Shown here piece by piece: positions 3,883 through 41,382 of a stretch of DNA of 64,000 bases. This DNA is from Spartobacteria bacterium (GTDB lineage Bacteria > Verrucomicrobiota > Verrucomicrobiia > Chthoniobacterales > UBA10450). Location: contig PNAA01000034.1 in assembly GCA_003169975.1 (NCBI GenBank), positions 1 to 64,000 of the forward strand, in the 5' to 3' direction. The notes below the pieces were generated by a model, which was not told the DNA's origin, searched no databases, and was given only the letters and a program-made list of their open reading frames with translations. The first letter of the stretch is position 1. Every line of letters begins with the position of its first letter. The translations under genes were made by a program, and so were the position numbers.

Positions 3883-5190
3883 TTACTGCTGGTTCGCGAT
3901 CCAGATATTGCCCGGCTTGGTAATGTTCCGGGCCTCTCCGAAGGCCGCGTGGGTTCGGCCAGTGAGATCGACGGCTAACTGAAAGTAATCCCCGTAGGGA
4001 AAAGCGAACCCATCCGGCGTGAGATAGTTGTAGCCCGGAACGTAGCCGGAAAGCCGGATGCTGGGAGCAAAGGTGTCACCTCCGTCGGCGCTCGTGCGAT
4101 AGAAAACATTCCACGGCCCGTTGCGCTGATCCATCCAGGCTATCCGGACGTCGCCCGGCGCGCCGCCGGTAATCAAAGTCGGGAAGCAGTGTTCGATCCC
4201 GGCGGGCGCATCGGAGATATCGCGCCGTGGGGAATAAGTAGCTCCGTGATCAGTGGAGCGCGCAAAGTAAACACGCTCCGAGGCGAAATCAGTCTGGTCC
4301 GGCGTCGAGTTCCAGAGCAGGTAAATGTGGTCATCGGAACCGATCTGGAGGGCCATCTGCGCGGCGAAGTATTGGTGGTCCTGGCACTTCGGGCAGGCCA
4401 TGGGCAGGCCGCTCACTCCAACGTCGGTATGACTCCAGGTCGCGCCGCCATCGGATGATTTCGTTACCCAGACTGGCGCTGTCGGCACCGGTTGGTTGAG
4501 GTAAACGCCGTTCCAGGCGAAGTAAATGTTACCCAGCGAATCGATGCCGCCACCGGCGGTGAGGAGTTGGTTAGGCATGCCCACCCGCTCGATGAGGTGG
4601 GTGGTCCAGTGCGCGCCGGCATCCTGCGAGATGGCCGCCCAGGTATTGACTTTGTAATCGGTGAAAGCGACCGCCATTGTTTTCCCGCGCGCGAGAAGCA
4701 CGAGTTTGTCGAGCGGCGGCGGCAGAGCCGTCACGCTTTTCGGCGTGGACCAGGTGGCGCCGAAATCCTTTGACGTGACCAGTTGAATGGTGGCTTGCGG
4801 GTAACCCTGGAGGAGGACGACGGAAACCGTGCGACCGTCCGGCCCGAAGGCGATCCAGGGATCGAACTGGCCCTGGCTCTTGGGCGGCGGAGCTGGCGCA
4901 ATCGGCACCGGCGCATTCCAAGTCTGTCCGCCATCGCTCGAGACCTGGACCATCATCCGGGTTTGGTAGAGTTGGCTGGTGGGATCGGCGTGAGCGTAGA
5001 CGGCATAGAGATGGCCCATCTGGTCCGTCGCGAGCGCCGGTTCCCAATCGTCGCCGGCCTGGAAGCCAATCCTGATCGGAGTGCCGAAGGAGGCCGCGCG
5101 CGGCGGCGTGCCGGCAATAACGGATCCGCCGCCTAAGAAGATCGCAGCGATGATTGCGAGCGAAAGAAAGCAACGTGACTTGTGTTTCAT
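3883..5190 (-). CDS. Secreted Asp-box (BNR) sialidase-like propeller protein
   Basis: About 435 aa from the ATG at 5190, giving a clean signal peptide (MKHKSRCFLSLAIIAAIFLG). A longer TTG start at 5208 would overlap the uvrB stop. At least five Asp-box motifs of the S-x-D-x-G-x-T-W type occur (SSDGGQTW, SKDFGATW, SQDAGAHW, SSDGGATW, STDHGATY), typical of a six-bladed sialidase-like propeller. The Arg triad and FRIP motif of true sialidases are not evident, so enzymatic activity is uncertain. It follows uvrB on the same strand but is probably unrelated to it in function. Confidence 0.75.
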   Translation of the reverse strand: MKHKSRCFLSLAIIAAIFLGGGSVIAGTPPRAASFGTPIRIGFQAGDDWEPALATDQMGHLYAVYAHADPTSQLYQTRMMVQVSSDGGQTWNAPVPIAPAPPPKSQGQFDPWIAFGPDGRTVSVVLLQGYPQATIQLVTSKDFGATWSTPKSVTALPPPLDKLVLLARGKTMAVAFTDYKVNTWAAISQDAGAHWTTHLIERVGMPNQLLTAGGGIDSLGNIYFAWNGVYLNQPVPTAPVWVTKSSDGGATWSHTDVGVSGLPMACPKCQDHQYFAAQMALQIGSDDHIYLLWNSTPDQTDFASERVYFARSTDHGATYSPRRDISDAPAGIEHCFPTLITGGAPGDVRIAWMDQRNGPWNVFYRTSADGGDTFAPSIRLSGYVPGYNYLTPDGFAFPYGDYFQLAVDLTGRTHAAFGEARNITKPGNIWIANQQ

Positions 5191-5204
5191 AGATTTGTGC
5201 AGAC

Positions 5205-7427
5205 TCAAACCCGCGAGCGCCGGCGGCCGGAGCCACGAGTGTATTTCACCGGCTTGCGTTTGGGTTCTATCTTCGTTAGGCCGGTGCCGCTTTTAACTTC
5301 CATGATCTGGTCGCGGAGCAAGGCGGCGCGCTCAAACTCCAGGTTGGCCGAGGCTTGTTGCATCTCCTCCTCCAATTCGCGGAGAAGCTCGGTGAGGTTA
5401 AAGTCGCCCCCGGCTTCCTGGATGACCGCCGCGGCGATTTCGCGTCCGCGCAGGATCGTGTGCAGGCTTTCCTGGACCGCGCGCCGCACGGTTTGCGGGG
5501 TGATGCCATGCTTTTCGTTATACTCCATTTGCTTCGCGCGGCGATAGTCGGAAATCGAGATCAGTGCTTGTATGCTCTGCGTTACCGTGTCGGCGAAAAG
5601 GACGACTTCGCCGTTGATGTGGCGCGCGGCCCGGCCGGCGGTCTGGATGAGCGAGGTCTGGCTGCGGAGGAAACCTTCCTTGTCGGCGTCGAGGATGCAG
5701 ACTAACGAGACTTCGGGCAGGTCGAGGCCTTCGCGGAGAAGATTGATCCCGACGAGGATATCGAACTCGGCCGCGCGCAACCCGCGCAGAATTTCCACCC
5801 GCTCGATGGTGTCGATGTCACTGTGCAGGTAACGCACTTTTAACCCAACATCGCGCAGATAATCGGAAAGGTCTTCGGCGGTCCGTTTGGTCAGAGTGGT
5901 GACGAGGACCCGCTCCTGGCGCTCCACCCTCTGGCGGCAGAGTTCGATCGTGTCGTCGATCTGGTTCTTTAATTCCTTGAGCGTGACCTTCGGGTCGAGC
6001 AGGCCGGTCGGGCGGATGATCTGCTCGACGACGAGCGGCGCGCCGGAGGTATGGACGTCGAATTCCTCCGGCGGCTGGTCGGTGCGGGAAATCGGAGGGA
6101 CGTGCTTCTGCACGTCCACGGACGAGTGGAAGCTCGTCCCTCCAGCAACCACAAAGGGCACCAGTTCCTCCTCGCCAATCCGGGCGCGCTTGTGCGGGAA
6201 GTAGCCGGTGTTGCCGACGATGCTGTTCTTGATCTCAAACTCGGCCGGAGTCGCGCTCACGTAGATGAGCTGGTTCGCGTTGCCCATGAACTCCGGGAAA
6301 TTGAGCGGCCGGTTGTCGAGCGCGCTCGGCAGGCGAAAGCCATATTCGACGAGCACGGTCTTGCGCGATTTGTCGCCTTCGTACATGCCGCCGATCTGCG
6401 GGATGGTGGCATGCGACTCATCGATCACGAGGAGGAAATCCTTCGGGAAAAAATCGAGGAGCGTGAACGGCTTCGACCCCGGCGGGCGTCCCGAGAGGTG
6501 CCGCGAATAATTCTCGATCCCGTTGCAGAAGCCCATCTCCTGCAACATCTCGAGATCGTATTCGGTGCGCATTTTCAGGCGTTGCGCCTCGAGCAATTTC
6601 CCAACCGACTCGAGCTGCACGATCCGTTGGTCGAGTTCGGTCCGGATCGAAGTGAGGGCGCGGTTCAACTTGTCGGCGGGGGTGACGAATTGTTTCGCCG
6701 GGAAAAAAGTCATCACGCCTAACGACTCCTGCGCGTGCCCGGTGAGCGGGTCGAAGCGCGTGATCGCGTCCACCTCGTCGCCGAAGAACTCCAGCCGCAC
6801 CGCTTCCTCGTCGGCGGTCGCGGGATAGACCTCGACCACGTCGCCGCGCACCCGGAATTTTCCCCGCGCAAAATTCACGTCGTTGCGCTCGTAAAGCATG
6901 TCGACGAGCCGGCCGAGGACGGCTTCGCGGGAGATCTGCTGCCCGCGTTTTACGGTCAGGAGCATGCGCAAATAGTCCTCCGGCGAAGTGACGCCGTAAA
7001 TGCAGGAGACGCTCGCGACCACGATCGTATCCCGGCGCGAAAGGAGCGCGCTCGTGGCCGAGAGCCGGAGACGCTCGATCTCTTCATTAATCGAGGAATC
7101 CTTTTCGATGTAAGTGTCGGAGCGCGGGATGTAGGCCTCGGGCTGGTAGTAATCGAAATAGCTGACGAAATACTCGACCGCGTTGCGCGGGAAGAACTGC
7201 TTAAACTCCGAGTAGAGCTGCGCGGCCAGCGTCTTGTTATGCGAAATGATGAGCGTCGGCCGGTCGAGCTCGCGGATGACATTCGCGATCGTGAACGTCT
7301 TGCCCGAGCCGGTGACGCCGAGGAGGGTCTGATGGCGATTTCCGGCTTCGACCGACTTGAGCAACTTCGCGATCGCCTGCCCCTGGTCGCCGCGCGGCCG
7401 GTAGCTGGATTCGAGCTCGTAGGACAT
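5205..7427 (-). CDS. uvrB: Excinuclease ABC subunit B
   Basis: About 740 aa from [15 protein letters not shown]. Its helicase motifs cover the whole UvrB fold: Walker A GVTGSGKT (residues 37-44), the damage-probing hairpin region [12 protein letters not shown], motif [10 protein letters not shown], motif [11 protein letters not shown] and a C-terminal UVR motif that pairs with UvrC ([20 protein letters not shown]). UvrB loads onto damaged DNA with UvrA and recruits UvrC for nucleotide excision repair. Between [12 protein letters not shown] and [17 protein letters not shown] there are about 60 residues not present in E. coli UvrB. Inside them a 50-bp palindromic element is inserted in frame (residues about 428-446). 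The frame is open throughout, so the protein is probably functional. Confidence 0.96.
6094..6143. repeat. 50-bp palindromic element inserted in frame within uvrB
   Basis: Two 25-bp arms form an imperfect dyad. The left arm starts GGAGGGACGTGCTTCTGCAC and the right arm, reverse-complemented, starts GGAGGGACGAGCTTCCACTC. Each arm is itself a small hairpin (ACGTGC...GCACGT and ACGAG...CTCGT). On the coding strand it adds [17 protein letters not shown] to UvrB without a stop or frameshift, in a region already longer than in E. coli UvrB. It looks like a mobile palindromic repeat of the kind known inside Rickettsia genes. Confidence 0.7.
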
Positions 7428-7524
7428 TCCACGCAATATGCGCCATGCCGGCAGGCGGCACAACGCGCCGCGGTGCGCGTCCTGCTCTCAAGATTGCGCC
7501 ATCTTCCTTGCACTGTCCGTTTCT

Positions 7525-9108
7525 ATGAAATCCAAGCTCTTTCTGAAAATCGCCGCGGGGCTCTTTGTCTTCGCTTCCGTCGCCCGGGGCGACACCTTTT
7601 TCGTGACCAACTTCGGCGTTAACTCGATCACCGAATACGACGCAAGCGGAGGCAACGGAACGCCTTTCACCAGTGCTTCCATCAACGGCCCCAACGGCGT
7701 CGTGCTCGACTCGGCCGGCAATCTCTACGTCTCGACCAACGGCAACACGATCGAGAAATTCGCGCCCGACGGCACGGACCTCGGCGTCTTCGCGAGCACC
7801 GGAATAAACAACGCGACGGGGCTGGCCTTCGATCGCAGCGGGAATCTTTACGCGGCCAACTTCGGCGGCAACACTGTCGAGCAATTTGCGCCCGACGGGA
7901 CCGACCTCGGCGTTTTTGCGGTCGTCATTCGCCCGACCGGTCTCGCCTTCGATGGCGCGGGCAACCTTTGCGTCGCGAACTTCGGGAACACGATCGCCCG
8001 CTTCTCGCCGAACGGGACGCCGCTCGCCAGTTTCACCAGCCTGACCCTGAACAATCCCGAGGGTCTCGCATTTGATTCGTTAGGCAATCTCTACGTCGCC
8101 AACAATGGCTCGGACTCGATCCAGTTTTTTTCCCCCGCCGGCGCCGACCTCGGCCCCTTCACTGCCAGCGGATTGAGCGGCCCAATCGGGCTGGCCTTCG
8201 ATACCGCCGGCAATCTCTACGTGGTCAACGGCCTTACCGCGACGATCGAGCAGGTCACTCCCGGCGGCACGGAGTCGCAATTCGCCACTACTGGTTTCAG
8301 TCCCGCCTTCATCGCCGTGCAAAAGACGCCGACCCTCATCAATATCTCGACTCGCCTGAACGTCCTGACCGGCGACAACATCCTCGATGGCGGCTTCATC
8401 GTCGTTGGGTCCGGTTCGAAAACAATCCTCATCCGCGGCCTCGGCCCGTCGCTGGCCGCCGCCGGCATCACCGGCGTGCTGGCCGACCCGATTATCGAAC
8501 TGCACAGCGGATCGACCAACGCGATCATCGCCGAGAACGACAACTGGAAAACTAATCAGCAGACGGCGATCCAGGCGACCGGTATCCCGCCGACGGATGA
8601 CGCCGAGTCCGCGCTCATCGCGACCCTCACAGCCGGCGCCTACACTGTGATCGAGCGCGGGAAGCTCGATGCGACCGGCGTGGGGTTGATCGAAGTTTAC
8701 GACCTCGGGGCCGGAGCCGGTCCGGAACTGGGGAACATCAGCACTCGCGGGTTTGTTAATACCGGCGAGAACGTGATGATCGCCGGCTTTATCGTCGCGA
8801 GCGGCAGCGGCGGGAGCGGCCAGGTTATCGTGCGCGCTCTCGGGCCATCGTTAGCCGGCTTCGGCGTCGCGAATCCGCTGGCCGACCCGACGCTCGAGCT
8901 GCACGACGTCAACGGCACGCTCATCGCCGCGAACGACAACTGGAAAACCGATCAAGAGTCGCTCATCGTCGGCACCGGCATTCCGCCGACGTTCGACGCC
9001 GAGGCCGCGATCGTTGCGACCCTCGCGCCCGGGGCCTATACCGCGATCGAAAGCGGCAAGGACAACACCACCGGAGTCGGTTTGGTCGAAGTCTATAACT
9101 TGCACTGA
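7525..9108 (+). CDS. Secreted NHL-repeat propeller protein with two C-terminal ISTR-type domains
   Basis: About 527 aa starting at the ATG at 7525 with a signal peptide (MKSKLFLKIAAGLFVFASVA). Residues about 25-265 are six or so NHL repeats (pattern GLAFDxxGNLYVAN), forming a beta-propeller. Two copies of a roughly 120-residue domain follow, from 8341 and 8734, each beginning NISTR, with GPSL, ADPxLELH, NDNWK and a closing TGVGLVEVYxL. The same domain ends the next protein. It is divergently placed from uvrB across 97 bp. Extracellular or outer-membrane location is likely; ligand unknown. Confidence 0.8.
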   Translation: MKSKLFLKIAAGLFVFASVARGDTFFVTNFGVNSITEYDASGGNGTPFTSASINGPNGVVLDSAGNLYVSTNGNTIEKFAPDGTDLGVFASTGINNATGLAFDRSGNLYAANFGGNTVEQFAPDGTDLGVFAVVIRPTGLAFDGAGNLCVANFGNTIARFSPNGTPLASFTSLTLNNPEGLAFDSLGNLYVANNGSDSIQFFSPAGADLGPFTASGLSGPIGLAFDTAGNLYVVNGLTATIEQVTPGGTESQFATTGFSPAFIAVQKTPTLINISTRLNVLTGDNILDGGFIVVGSGSKTILIRGLGPSLAAAGITGVLADPIIELHSGSTNAIIAENDNWKTNQQTAIQATGIPPTDDAESALIATLTAGAYTVIERGKLDATGVGLIEVYDLGAGAGPELGNISTRGFVNTGENVMIAGFIVASGSGGSGQVIVRALGPSLAGFGVANPLADPTLELHDVNGTLIAANDNWKTDQESLIVGTGIPPTFDAEAAIVATLAPGAYTAIESGKDNTTGVGLVEVYNLH

Positions 9109-9177
9109 GCCGCCCGGCCCGGAAGGTCGCCGGCCGGTCGCTTGTGTCGATCGCGCGGCGGCGTAAAATCTCGTAGA

Positions 9178-11694
9178 TTGAAAAAGAATTCCGGCGCTCT
9201 GCACGTCGCGCTCATCCTGGTGGCGGCAATGCTTTTTTGCCTGACGACATCCGCGGCGCCGGTGCCCGGTGTAACAATGAGCCCGCCGGATCGCAGCGGC
9301 TGGCCCGCCTCCCTGCAGAGCGTTCCGCTCGAGCATCTCTCCTCGGGTGCGCTCATGCTGCTCGACCGCGGCGGTGATCTCGTTAGGGCGCCAGCCTCCG
9401 GCCCGGTCCAAGCCCAGGCCGAAACGGCGGTGACCCTCGATCTGCGGGTCGGGCCCAATCTTCGCCTGGGCGACGACCCGGCACCGTTGCCGCCGACGAT
9501 GAGGGCCCAGGCCGAACCCCACATCGCGCGCTCGCAGGTGGACCCTGATTTTGTTGTCGCGGTTTTCCAGGAAGGCCGTTTCACGGATGGCGGCGCGGTC
9601 GATTGCGGTTACTCAGTCACGGTCGATGGCGGCCTCAGTTGGACGCGCGCGTTGATTCCCGGCCTAACGACCATCACCGGTGGCCCCTATTTCCGCGCGA
9701 CCGACCCGGTGGCGGGGATCGACCTGGGCGGCCGAATTTTCCTGAACACCGAGGGCGCGACCAACAGTGCCTTCACGAAGGGCATCGTTCTCGTCAGTCG
9801 CTCCCTCGATGGCGGGGCGACCTTTGCCGCGCCCTCGGTGGTTTTTTCACCGGCGATCAACAGCGACTTCCCCGACAAGCCGTGGATGGCGATCAATAAT
9901 TTCGCCGGCACCGCCGGCGTCGACCGGATTCTCGTCACCTGGACGGAATTTGGAACGACGGATGCCTCGCCAATCCTGCGCGCTTACAGCGACGACCATG
10001 GTGTGACGTGGAGCGCCTCCGCGCCGATCCACGCCACGACCACCAGCGCGCAAGGCTCGCAGCCGATTTTCCTGCGGGACGGGCGGGTGGCGATTATCTA
10101 TTGGAACTTCGCCGGGAGCGGTTTCAGCGGCGGCGACGCGGCGGCTACACCGGAGGAGATCGACATGGTTTTGTCGAACGACGGCGGCGTCACCTTCGGC
10201 GCGCCGACCCGCGTCACGACCGTGACCCGCTACGATCAGCCGAGCATTCGCAACGGCGTTTTCCTGCCTTCGGCCACAACCGACCGGACGACAGGCGCGC
10301 TTTACGTCGTCTACCAGGCGCTCGACCTTTCCGGCCAACCGCGCGTCCTGTTTACCAAATCGACCGATACCGGGGCGACGTGGTCGGCGCCGATCGCGGC
10401 CACCGATAATCCGAACACCGGCGTCTTCAATGCGGCGATTTCCGCCTCACCGGACGGACAAACCCTGACCGTTTCCTTCTACGATCAACGCGACAGCGGC
10501 GGCGTCACCACCCTTTGCAATCTTTATCTGGCCCAGTCGTTCGATGGCGGAGCGACCTGGCAACCGAACCTCCGCCTAACGAGTGTAACGACCGATGCCA
10601 GTCTCGCCCCGCTCACCTCGGAGGGTTACATGCTCGGTGATTATCTCGGGATCGCGGAATCGACCACCCCGGATGTGCCGGCGATCCCGGTCTGGGTCGA
10701 CACGCGTACTGGCAATCCCGACCCGTTTATTTCCCGCGTCGGCATTGCGCCGGATGTGGATTTTACCAGCTTCCAGGCGTCGCGCCTCTCCCTCGCGGAA
10801 ATCGATAACCCGCAGTTCGGCGGCCCGGCCGGCGACGCCGATGGCGACGGCGAGAACAACCTTTCCGAGTTTCTCTCGCAGACTGACCCTAACGACGCGG
10901 CGTCGGTCGTTCATCCCTCGCGGCAATTAAACATCTCGACCCGCGAGACCGTGGGCACGGGCGAAAACGTGCTCATTGGCGGCTTCATTGTCACCGGCCC
11001 GGCGCCGAAGCAGGTGATCCTGCGCGCGATCGGCCCCTCTCTCGCCGCCGACGGCCTGACCGGACTGTTGGCAGATCCGACCCTCGAAGTGCACGACGCC
11101 TCGGGCGCCCTTCTTTTTTCCAACGACGACTGGAAGAGCACGCAACAAGCGGCGATTGAGGCGACCGGCATTCCGCCCACCGACGACCGGGAATCGGCCA
11201 TCGTCGCGACGCTCGACCCGGGCACCTATACCGCGATTGTCCAGGGCAAGGGCAACGCCACCGGCACGGCCTTGGTCGAAGTCTACGATCTTGACCCGAC
11301 GCCGGTTACGCGGCTGAGCAACATCAGCACGCGCGGCGAGGTCGGGACCGGCACGAGCGTTTTGATCGGCGGCTTGATTGTTTCAGCCGAGGAAGCGGGG
11401 CAGGCGAACGTCGTCCTGCGCGCGCTCGGGCCCTCGTTAGGCACGCTGGGGGTGAGCGGCGCGTTGCAGGATCCGACGCTGGAATTGCACGATAGCAATG
11501 GCGCCCTCATCGCCTTCAACGACAACTGGCGCGATGCGCAGGAGGGGATCATCGCCTCCACCGGGCTCGCGCCGACCGATGATCGCGAGGCGGCCATTTT
11601 CGCGACCCTCCCCGCCGGAGCCTACACCGCCGTCGTGCAAGGCAAGGACGCGACGACCGGCGTCGGGCTGGTGGAGGCGTATAATATCCCGTAA
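9178..11694 (+). CDS. Secreted Asp-box propeller protein with dockerin-like linker and two ISTR-type domains
   Basis: No ATG precedes the signal peptide. The TTG at 9178 gives MKKNSGALHVALILVAAMLF and is preferred; an upstream TTG at 9142 is possible. The body has repeated Asp-box motifs (TVDGGLSWT, SLDGGATFA, SDDHGVTWS, STDTGATWS, SFDGGATWQ). An acidic DADGDGENNLSEFL stretch near 10837 resembles a calcium-binding thrombospondin-3/EF-type linker. Two NISTR domains start at about 10930 and 11320. At about 838 aa it is larger than a plain sialidase. It is in tandem with the NHL protein and shares its C-terminal domains, suggesting one export or anchoring route for both. Confidence 0.75.
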   Translation: MKKNSGALHVALILVAAMLFCLTTSAAPVPGVTMSPPDRSGWPASLQSVPLEHLSSGALMLLDRGGDLVRAPASGPVQAQAETAVTLDLRVGPNLRLGDDPAPLPPTMRAQAEPHIARSQVDPDFVVAVFQEGRFTDGGAVDCGYSVTVDGGLSWTRALIPGLTTITGGPYFRATDPVAGIDLGGRIFLNTEGATNSAFTKGIVLVSRSLDGGATFAAPSVVFSPAINSDFPDKPWMAINNFAGTAGVDRILVTWTEFGTTDASPILRAYSDDHGVTWSASAPIHATTTSAQGSQPIFLRDGRVAIIYWNFAGSGFSGGDAAATPEEIDMVLSNDGGVTFGAPTRVTTVTRYDQPSIRNGVFLPSATTDRTTGALYVVYQALDLSGQPRVLFTKSTDTGATWSAPIAATDNPNTGVFNAAISASPDGQTLTVSFYDQRDSGGVTTLCNLYLAQSFDGGATWQPNLRLTSVTTDASLAPLTSEGYMLGDYLGIAESTTPDVPAIPVWVDTRTGNPDPFISRVGIAPDVDFTSFQASRLSLAEIDNPQFGGPAGDADGDGENNLSEFLSQTDPNDAASVVHPSRQLNISTRETVGTGENVLIGGFIVTGPAPKQVILRAIGPSLAADGLTGLLADPTLEVHDASGALLFSNDDWKSTQQAAIEATGIPPTDDRESAIVATLDPGTYTAIVQGKGNATGTALVEVYDLDPTPVTRLSNISTRGEVGTGTSVLIGGLIVSAEEAGQANVVLRALGPSLGTLGVSGALQDPTLELHDSNGALIAFNDNWRDAQEGIIASTGLAPTDDREAAIFATLPAGAYTAVVQGKDATTGVGLVEAYNIP

Positions 11695-12935: not shown

Positions 12936-13913
12936 ATGATCCTTTCCGAGACACTCCTGCGCCAGACCCGCCTCCGCTTCCCCAGCCTGGAAGAGGCGGA
13001 GGTGGAAATTTCGCCGATCGAGAAAGGCGGCTCCGACCGCAAGTTCTATCGCATCCAGTTTTCGCCCGCGCAGTCGATCATCCTCGTCAAGTACACCCAC
13101 GAGCACGCCGAGAACGAGCGCTACGTGGAGATCGCGGAGTTCCTCGCCGCCCACGGGGTGCGCACGCCGAGGATTTTCTTCCACGACCCGGCGGAAGGCC
13201 TTATCTGGATCGAGGATCTCGGCGAGCGCGACCTCTGGAGTTATCGTGACACCAGTTGGTCGGTGCGGCGCCCCCTTTACGAATCGGCGCTCGAGGAAGT
13301 CGCGAAGCTGCATCGGGTGTCCGCGGCCGACTCGGCGGAAATCCGGGCCGATCTCCCGGCGCAGTTCGACGCCACGCTTTATCTTTGGGAGCAACATTAT
13401 TTTTTCGAGCATTGTCTCGGCCACCATTTCGGCGTCGACGAAAAGAAACGACGAAAGCTGGCCGCTCGGCCCGCGCTGCAGGAAATCGCGGAACGGCTGG
13501 CAGGTTTCCCGCGCGTCCTGGTGCATCGTGATTTCCAATCGCAAAACATCATCCTGCGCAACGGCGAGGCGCACCTGATCGATTTCCAGGGGATGCGACC
13601 CGGGCTGGCGGAATACGATCTCGCGTCGCTCCTTTACGATCCTTATGTGCGGCTGACCGGCGCGGAGCAGGCGGCGTTGCTCGCCTTTTATCAAACAATC
13701 GCCGACGTGAACGAGACGGAGTTCGCGGAAAAGGTCCGGCTCTGCGCGATGCAACGCCTGATGCAGGCCCTCGGCGCCTACGGCTATCTCGGGCTGGTGA
13801 AAGGGAACAAGGCGTTCCTCGCCCACATCCCTGCGGCCCAGCATTCGTTAGGTGCCGTGCTGGCCAGAATCGACGGGCTTGCGCCGTTGCGCGAGTTACT
13901 CGCTGATCTTTAG
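12936..13913 (+). CDS. amgK: Aminoglycoside-phosphotransferase-fold sugar kinase (AmgK-like)
   Basis: A 325-aa protein of the APH kinase fold. An N-terminal lobe has SDRKFYRIQF and a VKYT Lys. The catalytic loop is HRDFQSQNIIL (about residues 197-207) and the metal-binding motif is IDFQGMRPG. AmgK phosphorylates MurNAc and GlcNAc at the anomeric position to feed MurU. Pairing with the preceding nucleotidyltransferase is the main argument for this role. Substrate preference cannot be read from sequence. The intervening repeat separates the two genes by 145 bp, so co-transcription is plausible but not certain. Confidence 0.7.
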   Translation: MILSETLLRQTRLRFPSLEEAEVEISPIEKGGSDRKFYRIQFSPAQSIILVKYTHEHAENERYVEIAEFLAAHGVRTPRIFFHDPAEGLIWIEDLGERDLWSYRDTSWSVRRPLYESALEEVAKLHRVSAADSAEIRADLPAQFDATLYLWEQHYFFEHCLGHHFGVDEKKRRKLAARPALQEIAERLAGFPRVLVHRDFQSQNIILRNGEAHLIDFQGMRPGLAEYDLASLLYDPYVRLTGAEQAALLAFYQTIADVNETEFAEKVRLCAMQRLMQALGAYGYLGLVKGNKAFLAHIPAAQHSLGAVLARIDGLAPLRELLADL

Positions 13914-13977
13914 GCTTGCCAGGGGCGGCGGGTTCTTGGTAAAAGAGAGCCGCGCCGATTGGCGACACCCCGAACCC

Positions 13978-15516
13978 ATGAAAAACCGCTCTCTCTCCCT
14001 GCCGGCTCTATTGCCGGCGGTCCTGCTCTTATTCCTGACAAACCAACCCGCCTATTGTGCCGACGGCACTTGGGTTGCCAATCCTGTCGATAACAATTGG
14101 AATAATCCGGCCAACTGGTCTTCGGGAACGGTGCCGAGCGTCTTCGATACGGCGACTTTTGCCACGTCGGCCCAGAAATCGGTGACGGTCACGGATTTTA
14201 GCGCGGTAGGCGCGATCTCGTTTAACCCTGGCGCGGACGCCTTCACGATTACGTATCAGTTGCCGGACTACTTCTCAATAGAAGGCATCGGCATCACGAA
14301 CTTATCCGCTGTGATCCAGAGCTTCATCCTCAAGGCACCGACGGTGGAAGATAACAATGCCGGCGTGGTAATCTTCTATTTCGGGGCGACGGCGGGCAGC
14401 CAGACGTCCTTTACCTGTGAGGCCAGCCCGAAAAACGACGGAGCGATCGCAGGGTTGGAATTCCAAGGTGGCACGGCGGGCGCAGCGACCATTCATGACC
14501 TCGGAGCTAACATCGCCGGAGGAGCCGGCGGACGGACGGATTTTTATTATGACGACGGGTCGGCGGAGAACAGCACCATCACCAACGATGGTGGCAGCGT
14601 AGTGGGCGCGGGCGGAGCTGGGACCGCCTTTCAACTTTCGCGACCAACCGGCGGCAACGCGACGTTGATTGCCAATGGCGGAACCAACGGCGGCGATGGT
14701 GGCTCCTTTGTCTTCGCTGATGGCTCGTTAGGCGGGACGGCTCGGCTGGAGGTATTCGGCAATGGATTCATGGACTTGAGCAGGCACATCGGCCCGAGCT
14801 TCACCATTGGGTCGATCGAAGGCGACGGCCCGATCTATCTCGGTAAGACTGCGTTTATGGTAGGCAGCAACGACCTGAGCACGACCTTTTCTGGTGTGCT
14901 TCATCCCGGCAGCCCGACTGGCGGAGGCGGCGCCGGCTCGTTAACAAAGATCGGCACTGGCACACTCACTCTGAGCGGCGCGAATCTTTATACAGCCGGC
15001 ACGACGGTTAGCGCGGGCACGCTGGTCGTGAGCAATACTACGGGCTCGGCAACCGGTACCGGCGCTGCACAAGTGAACGCGGGGACGCTCGGCGGAAGCG
15101 GAATCCTCTCCGGGGCGGTGACCGTGGGCACGGGCGGTGGCACCGGAGCATTCCTCGCTCCGGCTCACGGGACCCAAAAGCAAACGACGCTCACGATCCA
15201 AAGCAGTCTGACCTTGCAAGCGGATGCGACCTACACCTACACCTTTAAAGCCAAGGGCAGAAAGGCACGGACCGACAAGGTGGTGGCCAATGGGGTGACG
15301 ATTAACGGAGCGAACTTTGCCTTCCAAGGCACCGCGCAGGGCACATTGAAGCAAGGTCTCGTCTTGACCGCGATCAGTAACACCGCCGCGACGCCGATCA
15401 GCGGCACCTTCGCCAACCTGCCCGATGGCGCGACCCTGACCGTCAACGGAAACAACTTCCAAGCCAGCTACGAAGGCGGCGACGGCAACGATCTTACTCT
15501 AACCGTAGTGCCATAA
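13978..15516 (+). CDS. Secreted autotransporter-associated beta-strand (PATR) protein 1
   Basis: About 512 aa from the ATG at 13978, with a signal peptide (MKNRSLSLPALLPAVLLLFL, cleavage near YCA-DG). The body is Gly/Thr/Asn-rich beta-helix sequence. The PATR motif is near residues 320-345 (LTKIGTGTLTLSGANLYTAG, then VSAGTLVVSN). The final 130 residues, ending GGDGNDLTLTVVP, are nearly identical to those of the next gene. No autotransporter beta-barrel is present, as is usual for such proteins in Verrucomicrobiota. Function is unknown; a surface or secreted matrix role is a guess. Confidence 0.75.
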   Translation: MKNRSLSLPALLPAVLLLFLTNQPAYCADGTWVANPVDNNWNNPANWSSGTVPSVFDTATFATSAQKSVTVTDFSAVGAISFNPGADAFTITYQLPDYFSIEGIGITNLSAVIQSFILKAPTVEDNNAGVVIFYFGATAGSQTSFTCEASPKNDGAIAGLEFQGGTAGAATIHDLGANIAGGAGGRTDFYYDDGSAENSTITNDGGSVVGAGGAGTAFQLSRPTGGNATLIANGGTNGGDGGSFVFADGSLGGTARLEVFGNGFMDLSRHIGPSFTIGSIEGDGPIYLGKTAFMVGSNDLSTTFSGVLHPGSPTGGGGAGSLTKIGTGTLTLSGANLYTAGTTVSAGTLVVSNTTGSATGTGAAQVNAGTLGGSGILSGAVTVGTGGGTGAFLAPAHGTQKQTTLTIQSSLTLQADATYTYTFKAKGRKARTDKVVANGVTINGANFAFQGTAQGTLKQGLVLTAISNTAATPISGTFANLPDGATLTVNGNNFQASYEGGDGNDLTLTVVP

Positions 15517-15534: not shown

Positions 15535-17262
15535 ATGAAAACCCACCGCCTCATCCCGCCCGCCCTGCTGCTGCCGCTCCTGCCCGCCCTGCTCTTAATC
15601 CTCGCGCACCAGCCCGCCCACGCCGGCAGCGCGACCTGGAGCTTGGATCCGCTCACGGGCGACTGGAATACCGCTGCTAATTGGACTCCGAACACCGTAC
15701 CCAACGGGCCAGACGACGAGGCAACATTCACCGTTTCTCACACCACCGATGTATTCGTCTCTGCCCCGACGGAACTTGCTTCCTGGACGTTCAATTCAGA
15801 CGCAAGCCCGTATTTTACTACCGTGAATGGAACGATCCTTGTCACCCTTAGCGGTAGCGGGATTGCAAATAACTCGCAGGTTGAGCAAACCATCTTTGCC
15901 AAGGCGGACCCGAGCGGTGTTTCCGGCACGGTCTGGTTCACAGGCAGCGCAGCCGTTATCGGCCCGATCTCTTTTATCACCGAAGGAAGCTCGACCGCAA
16001 ACTTCGCCAATGGCGGTGTTATCTCTTTCGGTGATTCTTCCAGAGCATCGAATTGCAAATTCCTGAATCAGGGGGCTAAGTTGGATGGAGTCTTTGGTGG
16101 ACGGCTCGCTCTTTCTGGGACCGCGCAAATGATCGGCTGCGAGGTCACTAACGAACCTGGTACCGCCAGCACAGCGAACGGCGGGTTGACAACCTTCGAA
16201 GATACTTCGAGCACAGGTAATGCGGTTTTTACTTCTCAGGGAGCAAGTGTCAGTGCCGCGCTTGGCGGTACGACCCACTTAATGGGGTTAGCCACCGTCC
16301 TTGACGGTGCCGTGTTCATCTCGCAAGGAGCTACGGTTGCAGGCGGCGCCGGCGGTCTCACCATCTTTGACAACTTTACGAACGCGGGCAGCGCAACCTT
16401 AATCGCGACTGGCGGAGCGAACGGCGGTGAAGGGGGTCTGATTCGGTTTGTCGGCTTTCCCAAAAGCGTGGCCCCGCGTGTCGAAGTTTTCGGAAACGGT
16501 ACTCTGGATGTGAGCGACGTTCTTCCGCGGTCAGCTCCGACTATCATAGGATCGCTCGAGGGCGACGGCATCGTCGTGATCGGAACTAATTCCGGAACAG
16601 AGACGCTGTCCATAGGTAGCAACAACCTAAGCACAGCTTTCTCTGGAGTTATCGTGGAAGACCCATCTGTCCCCGGCACTGGTGCGATTGCAAAGGTCGG
16701 CCCCAGCACGCTGACACTGAGTGGAGCAAGTACATATGGCGCTGGCACGACAGTAAGGGGCGGCGCGTTGCTTGTAACGAACACGACCGGCTCCGCGACG
16801 GGCACTGGAACGGTGACCGTTAGATCTAGCACGCTCGGAGGCAGCGGCATTATTTCTGGTCCAGTGACCGTTGGGACAACAAGCGGTTCCGGAAGTTTCC
16901 TCGCGCCGGCTTTTGGGAGGAACGCACAAGTCACTTTAACTCTGGAAAACAGCCTCACCTTGCAAGATGACGCGGTCTACACGTACACTTTTAAGGCGAA
17001 CAAGAACAAAGCGCGCACCGACCTTGTCATTGCCAGTGGCGTGACGATCAACGGAGCGAGCTTTGCCTTCCAAGGGAGCGCGCAAGGCGCATTGAAGCAA
17101 GGCCTCGTCCTGACCGTGATCAGCAACACCGCCGCGACGCCGATCGCTGGCACCTTCAGCAATCTGCCCGACGGCGCGATCCTGACCGCCAATGGAAATA
17201 ACTTCCAAGCCAGCTACGAAGGCGGCGATGGGAATGATCTTACGCTAACGGTGGTGCCTTAA
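15535..17262 (+). CDS. Secreted autotransporter-associated beta-strand (PATR) protein 2
   Basis: 575 aa, starting 18 bp after the stop of PATR protein 1. The signal peptide (MKTHRLIPPALLLPLLPALL, ending AHA-GS) and the N-terminal motif DWNTAANW match the first copy. The PATR segment is IAKVGPSTLTLSGASTYGAG and the end GGDGNDLTLTVVP is identical. The central part is more diverged and longer by about 60 residues. The close C-terminal identity points to a fairly recent tandem duplication or gene conversion. A degraded signal-peptide remnant of a third copy follows. Confidence 0.75.
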   Translation: MKTHRLIPPALLLPLLPALLLILAHQPAHAGSATWSLDPLTGDWNTAANWTPNTVPNGPDDEATFTVSHTTDVFVSAPTELASWTFNSDASPYFTTVNGTILVTLSGSGIANNSQVEQTIFAKADPSGVSGTVWFTGSAAVIGPISFITEGSSTANFANGGVISFGDSSRASNCKFLNQGAKLDGVFGGRLALSGTAQMIGCEVTNEPGTASTANGGLTTFEDTSSTGNAVFTSQGASVSAALGGTTHLMGLATVLDGAVFISQGATVAGGAGGLTIFDNFTNAGSATLIATGGANGGEGGLIRFVGFPKSVAPRVEVFGNGTLDVSDVLPRSAPTIIGSLEGDGIVVIGTNSGTETLSIGSNNLSTAFSGVIVEDPSVPGTGAIAKVGPSTLTLSGASTYGAGTTVRGGALLVTNTTGSATGTGTVTVRSSTLGGSGIISGPVTVGTTSGSGSFLAPAFGRNAQVTLTLENSLTLQDDAVYTYTFKANKNKARTDLVIASGVTINGASFAFQGSAQGALKQGLVLTVISNTAATPIAGTFSNLPDGAILTANGNNFQASYEGGDGNDLTLTVVP

Positions 17263-29357: not shown

Positions 29358-30134
29358 ATGAATCCGATCCGTTTCGTCCGCCTCTTCTCCCTGCTCTGGG
29401 TGACGCTTTGTCTTGCCGATGCCGCGACCGTCCGGGGAGACAGCGTGGACTCCCTGATCGCAAAGGGCGACCCGCTCGATCAACAGCTCCAAGCCGACGA
29501 AGCGCTCAAGTATTATCTGCCCGCGCTCGAGATGGAGCCGGACAACGTCGACCTGCTCGACCGGATCGCGCGGCAATACCGCCATTTGTTGAGCGACGCG
29601 CCCGACAAAAAAGAAAAGCTCCGGCTCGGGCACATCTCGCTCGAGTACGCTCAGAAAGCCGCCGCCCTCGCCCCGAATAACGCCGAGGCGCAGCTTTCGC
29701 CGGCGATCAGCTACGGGAAAATGCTCCCGTCTATGAGCATCGGAGAGCAGGTCGACGCTTCACCGCGGATCAAGGCGGCGTGCGACCGCGCCTTGGAGCT
29801 CGACCCGCGCAACGACAACGCGTGGCATATCCTCGGCCGCTGGAATCGCGTCCTCGCGGACGTCACCGGGGTAAAGCGCATGCTGGCCGGGTTGATCTAC
29901 GGCAAGCTGCCGGAGACGAGCAACGAAGAGGCGGAGAGGTGTCTCGAAAAAGCCATCGCGATCAACCCCCACCGGCTCATCCATTACATCGAGCTCGGCC
30001 ACATCTACATGCAGATGGGACGCAAGGACGAGGCGCGGGAGTATATCCAAAAAGGATTGTCGATGCCGGACAAGGAAAAGGACGATCCGGAGATGAAAGA
30101 GGTCGGCCGGCAGTTGTTGACGAAGTTAAGTTGA
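29358..30134 (+). CDS. Secreted TPR-repeat protein
   Basis: 258 aa with a signal peptide (MNPIRFVRLFSLLWVTLCLA). TPR-like helical pairs fill the rest: ADEALKYYLPALEMEPDNVD, LEYAQKAAALAPNNAEAQLS, CDRALELDPRNDNAWHILGR and CLEKAIAINPHRLIHYIELG. The arrangement resembles RMD1-type TPR proteins found in many Verrucomicrobiota and Bacteroidota. A scaffold role is likely. Its 3' end overlaps the convergent asnB by 9 bp. Confidence 0.78.
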   Translation: MNPIRFVRLFSLLWVTLCLADAATVRGDSVDSLIAKGDPLDQQLQADEALKYYLPALEMEPDNVDLLDRIARQYRHLLSDAPDKKEKLRLGHISLEYAQKAAALAPNNAEAQLSPAISYGKMLPSMSIGEQVDASPRIKAACDRALELDPRNDNAWHILGRWNRVLADVTGVKRMLAGLIYGKLPETSNEEAERCLEKAIAINPHRLIHYIELGHIYMQMGRKDEAREYIQKGLSMPDKEKDDPEMKEVGRQLLTKLS

Positions 30135-32108
30135 CGCGGCGTGGTTGTAGCCGGTCCATTCCGGCAGGTCCGCCAGGCCGCCGCCCATGAACTGATGGTG
30201 CCAGAGTTGAGTCGCGACGACCGCGGCCAATCCCATTTCAACCGAGAGTCGCGGCAACGAGCCGGCTCGCAGTTCGCGGAAACCCTTTCGCCAGTGCGCG
30301 ACTTCTTTCAGATCGAAATAACCGGTGCGCCGGAGTGAATCTGCGCTCAGGAGCTGGGCCACGAAGGGCGGCTCCGGTTCCATATGAAAACTATCGAGTG
30401 GCGCGCGGAAGATGACCTTGCCCCGGCGCGCGATCGGTTTTGGAATCCAGCGTTCGGCGAGCAGCCGCAACAGATATTTGTCGCGGAAACCGCGCAGTTT
30501 CCAGCGCGGATGGAGCTTCGCTGTGAAATCGAAAACCGCTTCATCCAGAAACGGATAACGCACTTCGACCGACGAATGCATCGCCACGCGGTCGCCCTTC
30601 GCTTGCAAAAGATGGCCGCCTAACAAGACCCGTGCCGCCATCCAAATCCCGCGATTGAGCGGCGCCCAGCGTTTCGCTCTTTCCAGCGGAAATCCCAGCT
30701 CGCCCCACGGATGGCTGTTGTTCATGACCTCGCGCATTTCCCCGGAGTAAAAACGCAGCTTCGAAATCGCGAGCAGGCCGTAGGAATCGATCCAGGCATT
30801 CGGTCCGCCGATCGATGACTCCACGCGCGCGCGCCATTCCGGCGGAAAGTGCGGCACTTTGTTCAGCCGCAAATAACCGCGCCGGCCCCAATCGCTCAGA
30901 TTCACTCCCGGCAGGATGTCGAGATAGTTCAACAGCTTGTGCGCTTTGTACCAGGGATAACCGACGAGCCATTCGTCGGCGCCTTCGCCGGTCAGCACCA
31001 CTTTTTGCCCATTGGCGTGGACGCGCTCGGCCAGCTTGAGTAGCGCGCCACAGGAAGTGTCGATCACCGGGGCCTCGGCCGCCTCGATCAACCTGGGATA
31101 ACTTTCCAGCGCCTCGCGATCACCGTATTCCTGCACGATCGGAAGCTTGGCCCCGATGTGCTGCGCCGAAAGGCTCGCGGCGCTCAGCTCGTCGAGCTTC
31201 GGTTCTTTCACCTGCACCGTGTAGGTGTTGATCGCCGGGCCTTTGAGGTTGCAGGCCAGGGCCAGGATCATGCTCGAATCGACTCCGCCGGAAAGATAAG
31301 AGCCGACTGGAACATCCGCGCGCAGCCGTTCCTCGACCGCTTGCATGAGCAGTCCTTCAAATTCATCCACCAGCGCGCCGGCATCGTCGCCCCACACCTC
31401 CTCGCCTTGCGCCGGGAAATCCATTTCCCAATAAGCGCGCTCCGCGATCTCCGCGGCCGCGCCCCGGGTCCCCGGCGTGATACGCAAACAATGCCCGGCC
31501 GGCAGGAGCTGCACGCCTTCAAAACAGGTCCGGGGTCCCGGCACCGCGGTGAAGGTAAAGACGTGATCGAGTCCTTGGCGATCCGGCCGCGGAGGCACCA
31601 TGCCCGACGCCAGCAGCCCTTTGATTTCCGACGCGAAAAGCAACCAATCGCCCTGCCGGCTCCAGTAAAGCGGCGCGATCCCAAAGCGGTCGCGACCGAG
31701 ATGAAGTTGTCGTTGTCGTTCGTCCCACAAGGCGAAGGCAAATTGTCCGCGCAACCGTTCCCACGTCTCTTCCCGTTGCTCTTCCCAGAGGTGCGGGATG
31801 ATCTCGGTATCGCAATGGGTGACAAAGCGATGGCCCTCGGCCGCAAGCTCTTCGCGCCGCTCGACGTAATCGAAAAGTTCGCCGTTGAAGACGACGAACA
31901 AGCTCCGGTCTTCGTTCGTCATCGGCTGTTGCCCGTCGGCCAGGCCGACGATGCTCAACCGTCGCGAAGCGAGTGAAATCCCCGGGCGCTCGAGAAAACC
32001 TTCCTCATCCGGACCGCGGTGGGTCAGCGCCCGGGACATGCGCTGCACCACTCCCGGAGGCGCGGGACGCTGCCCGGCGAGGTCCATGATTCCTGCAATT
32101 CCGCACAT
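30126..32108 (-). CDS. asnB: Asparagine synthetase, glutamine-hydrolysing
   Basis: 660 aa from MCGIAGIMDLAGQRPAPPGV. Cys2 is the amidotransferase nucleophile, exposed after Met removal, and RLSIVGLADGQQPM and FNGELFDY are glutaminase motifs. The synthetase half has the ATP pyrophosphatase loop SYLSGGVDSSMI and the GEGADE motif. The enzyme makes Asn from Asp, Gln and ATP. AsnB-like proteins in biosynthetic clusters can amidate other carboxylates. It is divergent from the PKS gene across 266 bp. A housekeeping role is equally possible. Confidence 0.85.
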   Translation of the reverse strand: MCGIAGIMDLAGQRPAPPGVVQRMSRALTHRGPDEEGFLERPGISLASRRLSIVGLADGQQPMTNEDRSLFVVFNGELFDYVERREELAAEGHRFVTHCDTEIIPHLWEEQREETWERLRGQFAFALWDERQRQLHLGRDRFGIAPLYWSRQGDWLLFASEIKGLLASGMVPPRPDRQGLDHVFTFTAVPGPRTCFEGVQLLPAGHCLRITPGTRGAAAEIAERAYWEMDFPAQGEEVWGDDAGALVDEFEGLLMQAVEERLRADVPVGSYLSGGVDSSMILALACNLKGPAINTYTVQVKEPKLDELSAASLSAQHIGAKLPIVQEYGDREALESYPRLIEAAEAPVIDTSCGALLKLAERVHANGQKVVLTGEGADEWLVGYPWYKAHKLLNYLDILPGVNLSDWGRRGYLRLNKVPHFPPEWRARVESSIGGPNAWIDSYGLLAISKLRFYSGEMREVMNNSHPWGELGFPLERAKRWAPLNRGIWMAARVLLGGHLLQAKGDRVAMHSSVEVRYPFLDEAVFDFTAKLHPRWKLRGFRDKYLLRLLAERWIPKPIARRGKVIFRAPLDSFHMEPEPPFVAQLLSADSLRRTGYFDLKEVAHWRKGFRELRAGSLPRLSVEMGLAAVVATQLWHHQFMGGGLADLPEWTGYNHAAST

Positions 32109-32374
32109 TAGCTTCTTAGCATCGCAGAGGTCCCTATCGAATAAAGCGTCAACCTTGGACCCGCCGCGGCGCGTCCGGTTTTCCCCGCGATTATCTCTAA
32201 AGCGTAATTCGCGGCCCAAATACGTGTGTCGGCGTGGCGGAAAACGAATTGATTTTAACATCAGTGAATGTCAGACCGTCCGTTGACGTCTCATTCCCTT
32301 TCCCTGATGGATAGACAGCTTGACATGCTCACAGGCAGCACTGATCAATCCGCCCTGCCGGGCAACTCACGAAC

Positions 32375-35300
32375 ATGCAAAAAGAACGTATTGCGATCAT
32401 AGGTGTCGGCTGCCGTTTTCCCGGCGGTGTCAACGCCACCGATGCGCTCTGGAAACTCCTCATCGAAGGCCGGGAAGGCGTCTGCGAAGTGCCGCCCGAT
32501 CGCTGGAACGTCGAGCGTTATTACGACGCCGAGCCGGGCGTGGCCGGCAAGTCGATCGTCCGCCGCGGTGGGTTCATCGATTCAATCGATCAATTCGATC
32601 CGCAATTTTTCGGTATCTCGCCGCGTGAAGCGCCGTATATCGATCCGCAACACCGACTTCTGCTCGAGACGGCGTGGGAAGCGATCGAGGACGCGGGCCT
32701 CGTGCTCGATTTCGAGCGCGGCACCGATCTCGGCGTTTTCGTCGGCATTTCGCATAACGATTATCAAGGAATCCAAAGCAACGCCTTCGATCACTTCGGC
32801 ATCAGCCCGCACACGCCGACCGGGAGCGCGCACAGCATCGCGGCCAATCGCATTTCATATTGCCTGAACCTGCGCGGACCGAGCGTGGCGATGGACACGG
32901 CCTGTTCCTCCGCGCTCACCGCGGTGCACATGGCGTGCGAGCACATCTGGACCGGCCGCGGCGATGCCGCTCTGGCCGGCGGCGTCACGGTCATGATCAC
33001 GCCCGGCGGGTTCATCGGATTTTCGCAAGCGGGCATGCTCTCGCCGGAAGGTCGTTGCGCCGCGTTCGACGCGACCGCGAGCGGCTTCGTCCGCGGCGAA
33101 GGCGCGGGCATGGTGCTGTTGAAACGGCTCTCCCAAGCGATCGCGGATGGCGACCCGATCCGCGGCGTCATTCTCGGGACATCAATCAATCAAGACGGGC
33201 ACACCAACGGCATCTCGCTCCCCAGCCCGGAAGCGCAGACGCGACTCGTTCGCGACGCGTGCGCCGATGCGGGCGTCGCGCCGGAGGAGATCGGTTTTGT
33301 CGAAGCGCACGGCACCGGCACGGCGGTCGGCGATCCGATCGAAGCGCACGCGCTGGCCGACGCGCTGTGCGTCAACCGCTCCGAGCCGCTCGCGATCGGC
33401 TCGATCAAAACCAATCTCGGCCATCTCGAGACGGCCGCCGGCATCGCGGGACTTCTTAAAGCGATGCTGGTCCTGCAACACGGCCAGATCCCGCCCAGTC
33501 TCCATTTTAAAACCCCGAGCCCACACATCGATTTCGTGAAGCTCAAGCTGCGCGTGCCGACCGAGCTCGAGTCTTTCCCCGGCGGGAACGGCGAGCGCCT
33601 GGCGGGCGTCAATTCCTTCGGCTTCGGCGGCGCCAACGCGCACGTCATCATGGCCGAGCCGCCGACGCATCAGCCGATAAAATCCTCCGAGTTTCACGCC
33701 GCCCGGCCCTGGCCGCTGATGCTTTCCGCCCGCTCGGAAAAAGCGCTCCAGGCTTCCGCGGCCAATTTGAGCACCTGGGTGAAAGAGCACGCCGATTCCA
33801 ACGGCAGCTCGCCCGTTCTGCCGGATCTCACCTACACGTTAGGCGTGAGGCGCAATCATCATCCGCATCGGCTCACCCTCACCGCCGGGAATTGGGCCGA
33901 GCTGACCGAAGAACTCGACGCCTTCGCCAACGGCGAACCAGGCCCGAAGATCCGATCAACTTTCACCGCCCGGCGCGAAGCAGCGCCGCAGATCGGGTTC
34001 ATCATGAGCGGCCAGGGTCCGCAATGGTGGGGGATGGGGTGCGAATTGATGAAGCACGAGCCGGTCTTCCGCGAAGCGATGGAACGTTGCGACGCCGCTC
34101 TGCGTCCCTGGGCCAGCTTCTCCCTTCTCGAAGAACTCGGCCGCAGCGAAGAAACCTCCCGCATCTCGCGGACGGAGATCGGGCAGCCGGCCATTTTTGC
34201 CATGCAGGTGGCGCTCGCCGCGCTCTGGAAATCCTGGAGCGTGGAGCCGTCCGCTGTCGTCGGCCACAGCGTGGGCGAGATCGCCGCGGCTTGCGTCGCC
34301 GGCATCTTTTCCGTTGAAGACGCGGCCCGCGTGATCGCGCTGCGAGCGCGTTTGATGGAGGAATGTGGACGCGGCGAAGGCACAATGCTCGCGGTCGGAT
34401 TGCCGGAAGAAGAAGCCCTCGCGCTCATCGCGCGGCACGATCGCACGGTCACGATTTCCGCTTATAACGGCCCGCGTTCGATCACGCTTTCCGGTCCGCG
34501 CCTTTCGCTCGAGGCGATGGCCGCCGAGCTCGAGGCGCAGGGCGCGTTCGCGCGACTCGTTAGGGTGGATCATCCTTTTCATCATCCGCTCATGCGACCG
34601 GCGGCAGAAGCTCTGGAAAACGCGCTCGCCGATTTGAAACCGCAGCCGGGCACCGTTCCGTTTTTCAGCACCGTGACGGGCGAACGGCAGACCGGTGAAT
34701 CCTGCGACGCCGCTTATTGGGGAAGCGGCATTCGCGAGCCGGTCCGTTTCACTTCGGCGGTGAACGCGCTGGCGGATTTCGGAGTCGACGTCTGGCTCGA
34801 GCTCAGCGCGCATCCCGCGCTCGCGCATGCCGCCCAGGAATCCCTGAGCGCGCGTGGAACCAAGGCGCCCATCGTTTCCTCGGCTCGCCGCGAACGCGAA
34901 TTCGAATCCATCCTCGAGGCCGCGCTCGATCTGCATCGCGCCGGAGTGCCGCTCGATTTTTCCGCGATGACGCCTTCCCGGAATTTGCTTTCCCTGCCCG
35001 CCTACGCCTGGGAAAAAAACCGCTGGTGGAACGAGTCGAGCGACGCCCGCGAAGGCCGGCTCGCGCCCGGCGGACGCGGCCTGCTTGATGTGCGCCTGCC
35101 GCGCGCGACGCCCACCTGGATCGCGCGGCTCGACTCCCGCCACATGGCTTTCCTGAAGGATCACAAGGTGGAAAACCACGTCATCTTCCCGGCCGCTGCG
35201 TTCGTCGAGATGGCGCTCGAAGCCGGCGTGCAGTTGTTCGAGGGCCGGCCGTTTGCGGTCGAGGATTTCGAGATCCGCAAGCCCCTCATCCTGCCCGATC

Positions 35301-41379: not shown

Positions 41380-41382
41380 TCC

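Follow-up and report, generated by a model that had tools for sequence, protein, structure and literature searches.

We analyzed a 64,000-nucleotide stretch of DNA (hereafter, the window; positions 1 to 64,000 of contig PNAA01000034.1, assembly GCA_003169975.1) from a Spartobacteria bacterium (Verrucomicrobiota, Chthoniobacterales), in which two adjacent beta-propeller proteins end in the same double domain (hereafter, the module), which, on balance, is probably a C-terminal sorting or anchoring module. An earlier note on this DNA had described an undescribed domain of about 120 residues in four copies; all four are confirmed, C-terminal in both proteins (Table 1), with pairwise identities of 51% to 61%. 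The length holds for a single copy, but the recurring unit is a pair of about 250 residues. The carriers are indeed propeller proteins that appear to be secreted, one with NHL and the other with BNR repeats, and both have signal-peptide-like N-termini according to a crude rule.

The module is abundant in the genome of origin and has a nearly fixed position. With copy 1 of the first protein as a tblastn query (E ≤ 0.001), 91 matches were recovered in this genome, and the other three window copies were matched at E-values of 4.0e-43, 1.2e-38, and 1.4e-32, so that the module family is far beyond chance. For the architecture analysis, we took 37 stretches around these 91 places; the genome holds 35 frames with two full copies, both window proteins counted, and 17 further frames with one copy or partial copies only. 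The module genes in several loci (among them L024, L033, L039, L044, and L045) are split across neighboring shifted frames, which we read as broken genes, pseudogenes, or assembly errors. Frames open at the 3′ end being excluded, the second copy is followed by no more than 3 residues in 30 of the 35 frames and by no more than 12 in 32, the remaining tails measuring 14, 16, and 35 residues. Relatives were represented by 79 loci from the genome_contigs collection, drawn from the best 80 of at least 543 matches; by title, 78 belong to Verrucomicrobia, Verrucomicrobiota, Spartobacteria, or Chthoniobacterales and 1 to Pyrinomonadaceae, the latter being a contig of 3,350 bases that was possibly misbinned. 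Tails of at most 12 residues occur in 99 of the 101 closed two-copy frames of this set, and tails of at most 3 residues in 35 of the 38 such frames from a more distant set (40 loci chosen from matching genomes, representing 21 other genomes). After removal of 6 near-duplicates (L068 and L172, for instance, are identical, one gene occurring in two sets), tails of at most 12 residues are found in 160 of 168 distinct closed two-copy frames (genome of origin, 32/35; relatives, 96/98; other genomes, 32/35). Frames with three copies were seen in none of the three sets. By contrast, none of 24 ordinary PPC matches in the phylum (18 frames; PF04151 matches with E ≤ 1e-6, L186 and L201 left out) lies within 12 residues of the stop codon, the nearest being 94 residues away.

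The two copies appear to have a long common history. A tree was built from 214 of the 356 copies, the relatives being sampled at 30 proteins. A single branch (support 0.938) separates N-terminal from C-terminal copies for 161 of the 214, and it sorts 125 of the 142 copies that come from the genome of origin, the 30 sampled relatives, and other members of the same taxonomic order. The nearest neighbor of a copy occupies the same position in 184 of 214 cases and is its own partner in only 13. As N- and C-terminal copies thus mostly group apart, the pair seems to be ancient and to have been passed on as one piece, and, as far as these sequences can tell, the N-copy and the C-copy look like different parts of one ~250-residue unit.

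The carriers are diverse. Signal-peptide-like N-termini were detected in 32 of the 35 carriers from the genome of origin, both window proteins included, and in 77 of 81 from the relatives. By the same crude rule, the other long frames, which served as controls and include non-gene frames, gave 45/118 and 79/188, respectively. The front ends of the 35 carriers, counted from 25 of 58 families, include He_PIG immunoglobulin-like (Ig) domains (6), SGL (4), NHL (3), Kelch (3), alpha/beta hydrolase (3), and matrixin (3) domains; proteases are scarce among the families listed (matrixin, 3; S9, 2; S15, 2). Some carriers are kin, such as L009:2811-5819, which is 67% identical to the first window protein. 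In 7/35 and 13/96 cases, a linker of the proline-threonine type is found in the 45 residues that precede the module.

The earlier note had assigned the module to many exported proteins of the phylum, which is too wide: within a sample of 387 genomes of the phylum, only 22, from 5 families, contain matches, one of them weak (G157, E 5.7e-5), and no match was found on plasmids. Within the family of the window, 44 of 83 genomes have a match and 39 have none; at least 6 matches are present in 39 genomes and one to three in 5, counts near 32 being lower bounds. All 5 genomes of the window's own genus carry the module, whereas it was found in 0/6 and 0/4 genomes of two other genera (g201 and g208). 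Many of the genomes in the family are incomplete, so that single absences are unsafe. The PEP-CTERM/exosortase system resembles the module in that a single C-terminal region is common to numerous signal-peptide proteins of diverse kinds in a genome, and its distribution is likewise all-or-many, with several such proteins per genome if any (PMC1569441).

Structure prediction, proposed earlier as a check, was confident. The AlphaFold2 model, based on 98 aligned modules (frames open at the 3′ end, partial copies, tails longer than 10 residues, and sequences more than 90% identical were omitted), has a predicted local distance difference test score of 94.4 and a predicted template modeling (TM) score of 0.87, and consists of two mainly beta domains, a tandem jelly-roll with the elements in the same order. 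Foldseek recovered the jelly-roll fold of solved PPC and collagen-binding domains. The top-ranked structure was the pair of collagen-binding domains of ColG, also in tandem (5iku, E 6.0e-9); its TM score of 0.30 and root-mean-square deviation (rmsd) of 16.9 over the whole pair indicate that the mutual placement of the domains probably differs from that in the module. Unrelated beta-sandwich proteins followed, and then the single PPC/subtilase jelly rolls 5sv5, 9ues, and 3afg at ranks 26, 29, and 43 (probability 1.00, rmsd 3.7–4.0; for 5sv5, E 2.9e-3, TM score by target 0.64, and rmsd 3.8). With VIA-align, the best Z-score was 7.6 for 3afg (rmsd 2.7, 98 aligned residues), which, with LipL32 at 7.4, is not clear of common arrangements; 5sv5 reached 6.3 (rmsd 2.4, 92 aligned). 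When compared with 24 PPC sequences using hhalign, the core motif was in register over 55 columns, with E-values of 5.6e-4 and 2.9e-4 and probabilities of only 30% and 40%, respectively, and all four reversed controls stayed under 1%. Considering Foldseek, VIA-align, and hhalign jointly, we take the modeled module to be a divergent PPC-like pair. It resembles PPC (PF04151) in its predicted jelly-roll fold, in its occurrence on exported proteins, and possibly in its core motif, and differs in being a fixed pair at the extreme C-terminus, where none of the 24 PPC matches of the phylum lies. A sequence search of the Protein Data Bank returned a single match, at E 2, attributable to chance.

The epithet "undescribed" could not be upheld: the module seems to be built on a fold known from secreted enzymes, and an NCBIfam model already covers isolated modules. 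In the Pfam scan, PPC was listed for neither of the window proteins, and their module parts had only sub-threshold matches; for the 35 modules, weak matches at E up to 1 were obtained to PPC in 6 (best E 7.5e-5) and to a galactose-binding model in 24 (best E 3.4e-5). A search of the genome of origin with PF04151 at E 0.001 yielded a lone match (C23:154766-154948), which is not a module copy. Matches to secretin and SctC models were partial, and below the cut-off where a cut-off was shown, and were taken as chance. The curated 29-bit cut-off of NF038127 ("DVUA0089 family," FDP_fam) is passed by all 10 isolated modules tested (8 from the genome of origin and 2 from the f10 set), with 31.0 to 56.5 bits, and the model matches 31 of the 35 modules at E up to 1; in a six-frame search, it also exceeded the cut-off at several places in the genome of origin. 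A scan of the full-length sequences of both window proteins at E up to 1 did not list NF038127. The best-scoring stretch spans part of one copy, and the model is wider than the module, being found in 43/387 genomes compared to 22/387, including genomes in which no module was found. No function for NF038127 was found in this analysis, and no description of the module in the open literature, as judged from titles and the openings of abstracts.

The fold and the NF038127 match bear on a rival explanation, somewhat doubtful in our view, according to which the module is a tandem matrix- or substrate-binding domain, the PPC-like pair holding the secreted protein on an external protein or polysaccharide with no dedicated sorting machinery. 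The Foldseek ranking, with the ColG pair first and a single PPC domain at rank 26, agrees with such a role. Protein binding is described for both PPC domains of protease E495 (PMC3327674), and collagen binding for a C-terminal segment that contains a PPC domain (PMC6168687). DVUA0089, the namesake of the related NF038127, is listed among the genes targeted by a Desulfovibrio regulator that acts on exopolysaccharide and biofilm synthesis (PMC4641369). Internal placements of the module, described below, also exist; together with the fold, they favor recognition by a bound polymer. Binding domains are usually variable in place and number, whereas both are nearly fixed in the module, which favors recognition by a transport machine; an all-or-many distribution within one family would also be less expected of a binding domain.

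We regard as improbable a further alternative, that the module is a C-terminal propeptide or a folding/stability domain removed after secretion, as in some PPC-bearing proteases. Protease E495 is described as having stable forms with no PPC and with one PPC domain and a possible two-PPC intermediate (PMC3327674). However, proteases are few among the carrier families listed, propellers and Ig proteins would need no such propeptide, and near-invariant residues of the module alignment extend to position 252 of 255, so that the very end of the module seems to be used.

A check for co-occurrence with a sorting system, as proposed in the earlier note, yielded no partner machinery. The genome of origin contains one exosortase, one PEP-CTERM match, and two secretins. 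Exosortase was found in 20 of the 22 module-bearing genomes, yet 272 of the 292 exosortase-containing genomes among the 387 lack the module; none was detected in G310 and G351 (97% and 96% complete, so that incompleteness could explain it). Unlike PEP-CTERM, the module is a folded pair of 250 residues, with neither a hydrophobic helix nor a basic tail in the genome of origin, and in most rows of its alignment nothing follows the last strand, with no PEP-CTERM-type tail other than in two loci of another genus, L160 and L161. Given the short tails in the genome of origin and the two module-bearing genomes without a detected exosortase, an exosortase is unlikely to be the partner that reads the module. 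The GspD-type model TIGR02517, searched in 21 of the 22 module-bearing genomes only, matched in all 21 at E 6.1e-81 or better, none over the cut-off, and is not discriminating.

In the type IX secretion system (T9SS), exported proteins of various kinds terminate in a C-terminal domain that is a folded beta-sandwich, and the module resembles this domain in these respects. A T9SS-type signal in bacteria in which the T9SS went unrecognized is nevertheless very improbable. The module is double and longer, and TIGR04183, the T9SS C-terminal domain model, matched only 2 of the 35 modules when E-values up to 1 were admitted, the best being 0.011, far from significant. SprA_N was found in 0/387 genomes, although it was likewise detected in 0/14 control genomes, which is not proof of absence. 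The T9SS is accordingly an unlikely reader of the module.

Several further observations weigh against a sorting or anchoring module, the crude signal-peptide test and its mixed controls among them. The mean identities differ little (within protein, 0.54; N–N, 0.518; C–C, 0.564; between-protein N–C, 0.518), so that the separation of N- and C-copies is real but modest, and in the more distant f10 set (a label that includes one f20 protein), the split by position is weak (44/72). The module can also be internal: the two exceptions among the relatives have 115 and 659 residues behind it, the three among the 21 other genomes have 51, 52, and 105, and four more distant frames, open at the 3′ end, extend at least 227 residues past it. 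In L160:651-6740 and L161:651-6740 (genomes G169 and G181, with one module match each), a linker rich in Ser, Asn, and Gly comes after the module and leads to a GGGGAPAPW-like motif, then a hydrophobic stretch, and finally a basic tail; since this arrangement resembles a different, tripartite C-terminal sorting signal, the module is not the last signal there. The predicted substrate-binding-domain fold counts on the same side. Finally, no dedicated partner gene was found beside the module genes when 947 neighbor frames were clustered (frames of at least 120 residues surviving an overlap filter, hence not all genes). The occurrence of a C-terminal pair on many exported proteins thus fits the sorting, anchoring, or adhesion role suggested previously, but no partner machinery was found.

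If the module is a sorting or anchoring module, its carriers would exit the cytoplasm via the N-terminal Sec-type signal peptide, as supported by sequence under the crude test, and their last ~250 residues are predicted with high confidence to fold as two PPC-like jelly rolls. The pair could then be read as one unit, either by an exporter in the outer membrane or by a receptor at the surface or in the matrix, and this reader would serve dozens of carriers in a genome. Recognition of the pair outside the cytoplasm would decide the final place of the protein, and the cargo might be retained on the cell surface or in the extracellular matrix. More specifically, and only tentatively, we propose that the window's family (probably Chthoniobacterales), along with some other Verrucomicrobiota, has an unrecognized system for outer-membrane export or surface anchoring, with the module as its substrate tag. 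Such a system would serve from a handful to more than 30 proteins per genome, and related genera would either have all of it or lack it entirely.

Among the neighbors of the module genes, the recurrent groups, named from their sequences rather than from profile matches, were sensor-kinase-like (10 loci), ABC-transporter-like (9), PATR-type (7), DUF1800-like (6), and DUF1501-like (6) genes, in addition to Ser/Thr-kinase-like (10) and sigma-factor-like (5) genes, the latter two recurring in L010, L076, L083, and other loci. A gene pair recurs in loci L123, L149, L152, L153, and L154, which we take to resemble DUF1800 and DUF1501 proteins.

The features of the two window proteins are listed in Table 1. 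The first protein likely starts at the ATG at 7525, judging from the onset of its putative signal peptide; the longest frame opens at 7438. In each protein, the second copy is matched by the profile up to one residue before the stop codon. Next to the two carriers, the minus strand encodes a BNR propeller protein that lacks the double domain (3883–5208). Elsewhere in the window, two neighboring PATR proteins (13852–15516 and 15535–17262, plus strand) have closely similar C-termini of a different kind, ending FQASYEGGDGNDLTLTVVP; PATR was the only Pfam match of either at E 1e-5, and no autotransporter barrel was found in them. At 32375–42372 (plus strand), genes for a polyketide synthase of 2547 residues, for a protein with a condensation domain, and for a fatty acid desaturase are grouped together; with an asparagine synthase-like gene at 30126–32261 (minus strand), they likely form a secondary-metabolite cluster.

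Table 1. Coordinates of the two module-bearing propeller proteins and of their parts in the window.
Feature	Position	Strand	Basis
NHL beta-propeller protein (protein 1) with C-terminal double domain	7525..9108	+	Open reading frame; Pfam NHL E 4.9e-15
Protein 1, probable Sec signal peptide (MKSKLFLKIAAGLFVFASVARG...)	7525..7593	+	Crude hydrophobicity rule; limits inferred
Protein 1, module copy 1 (N-type)	8341..8733	+	tblastn and profile match; AlphaFold2 model residues 1–131
Protein 1, module copy 2 (C-type), up to last codon	8734..9105	+	tblastn and profile match; AlphaFold2 model residues 132–255
BNR (sialidase-like) beta-propeller protein (protein 2) with C-terminal double domain	9142..11694	+	Open reading frame; Pfam BNR_2 E 7.5e-10 and BNR E 2.7e-8
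Protein 2, probable Sec signal peptide	9142..9258	+	Crude rule; limits inferred
Protein 2, module copy 1 (N-type)	10930..11319	+	tblastn, profile match, alignment
Protein 2, module copy 2 (C-type), up to last codon	11320..11691	+	tblastn, profile match, alignment

The division of the window's family into 44 genomes with and 39 without a module match is a pattern suited to the search for a partner by phylogenetic profiling, for which PEP-CTERM offers a precedent (PMC1569441). The surface biology of such bacteria is little studied, and the module would provide one recognizable, address-like tag on dozens of their secreted propellers, Ig proteins, and hydrolases.

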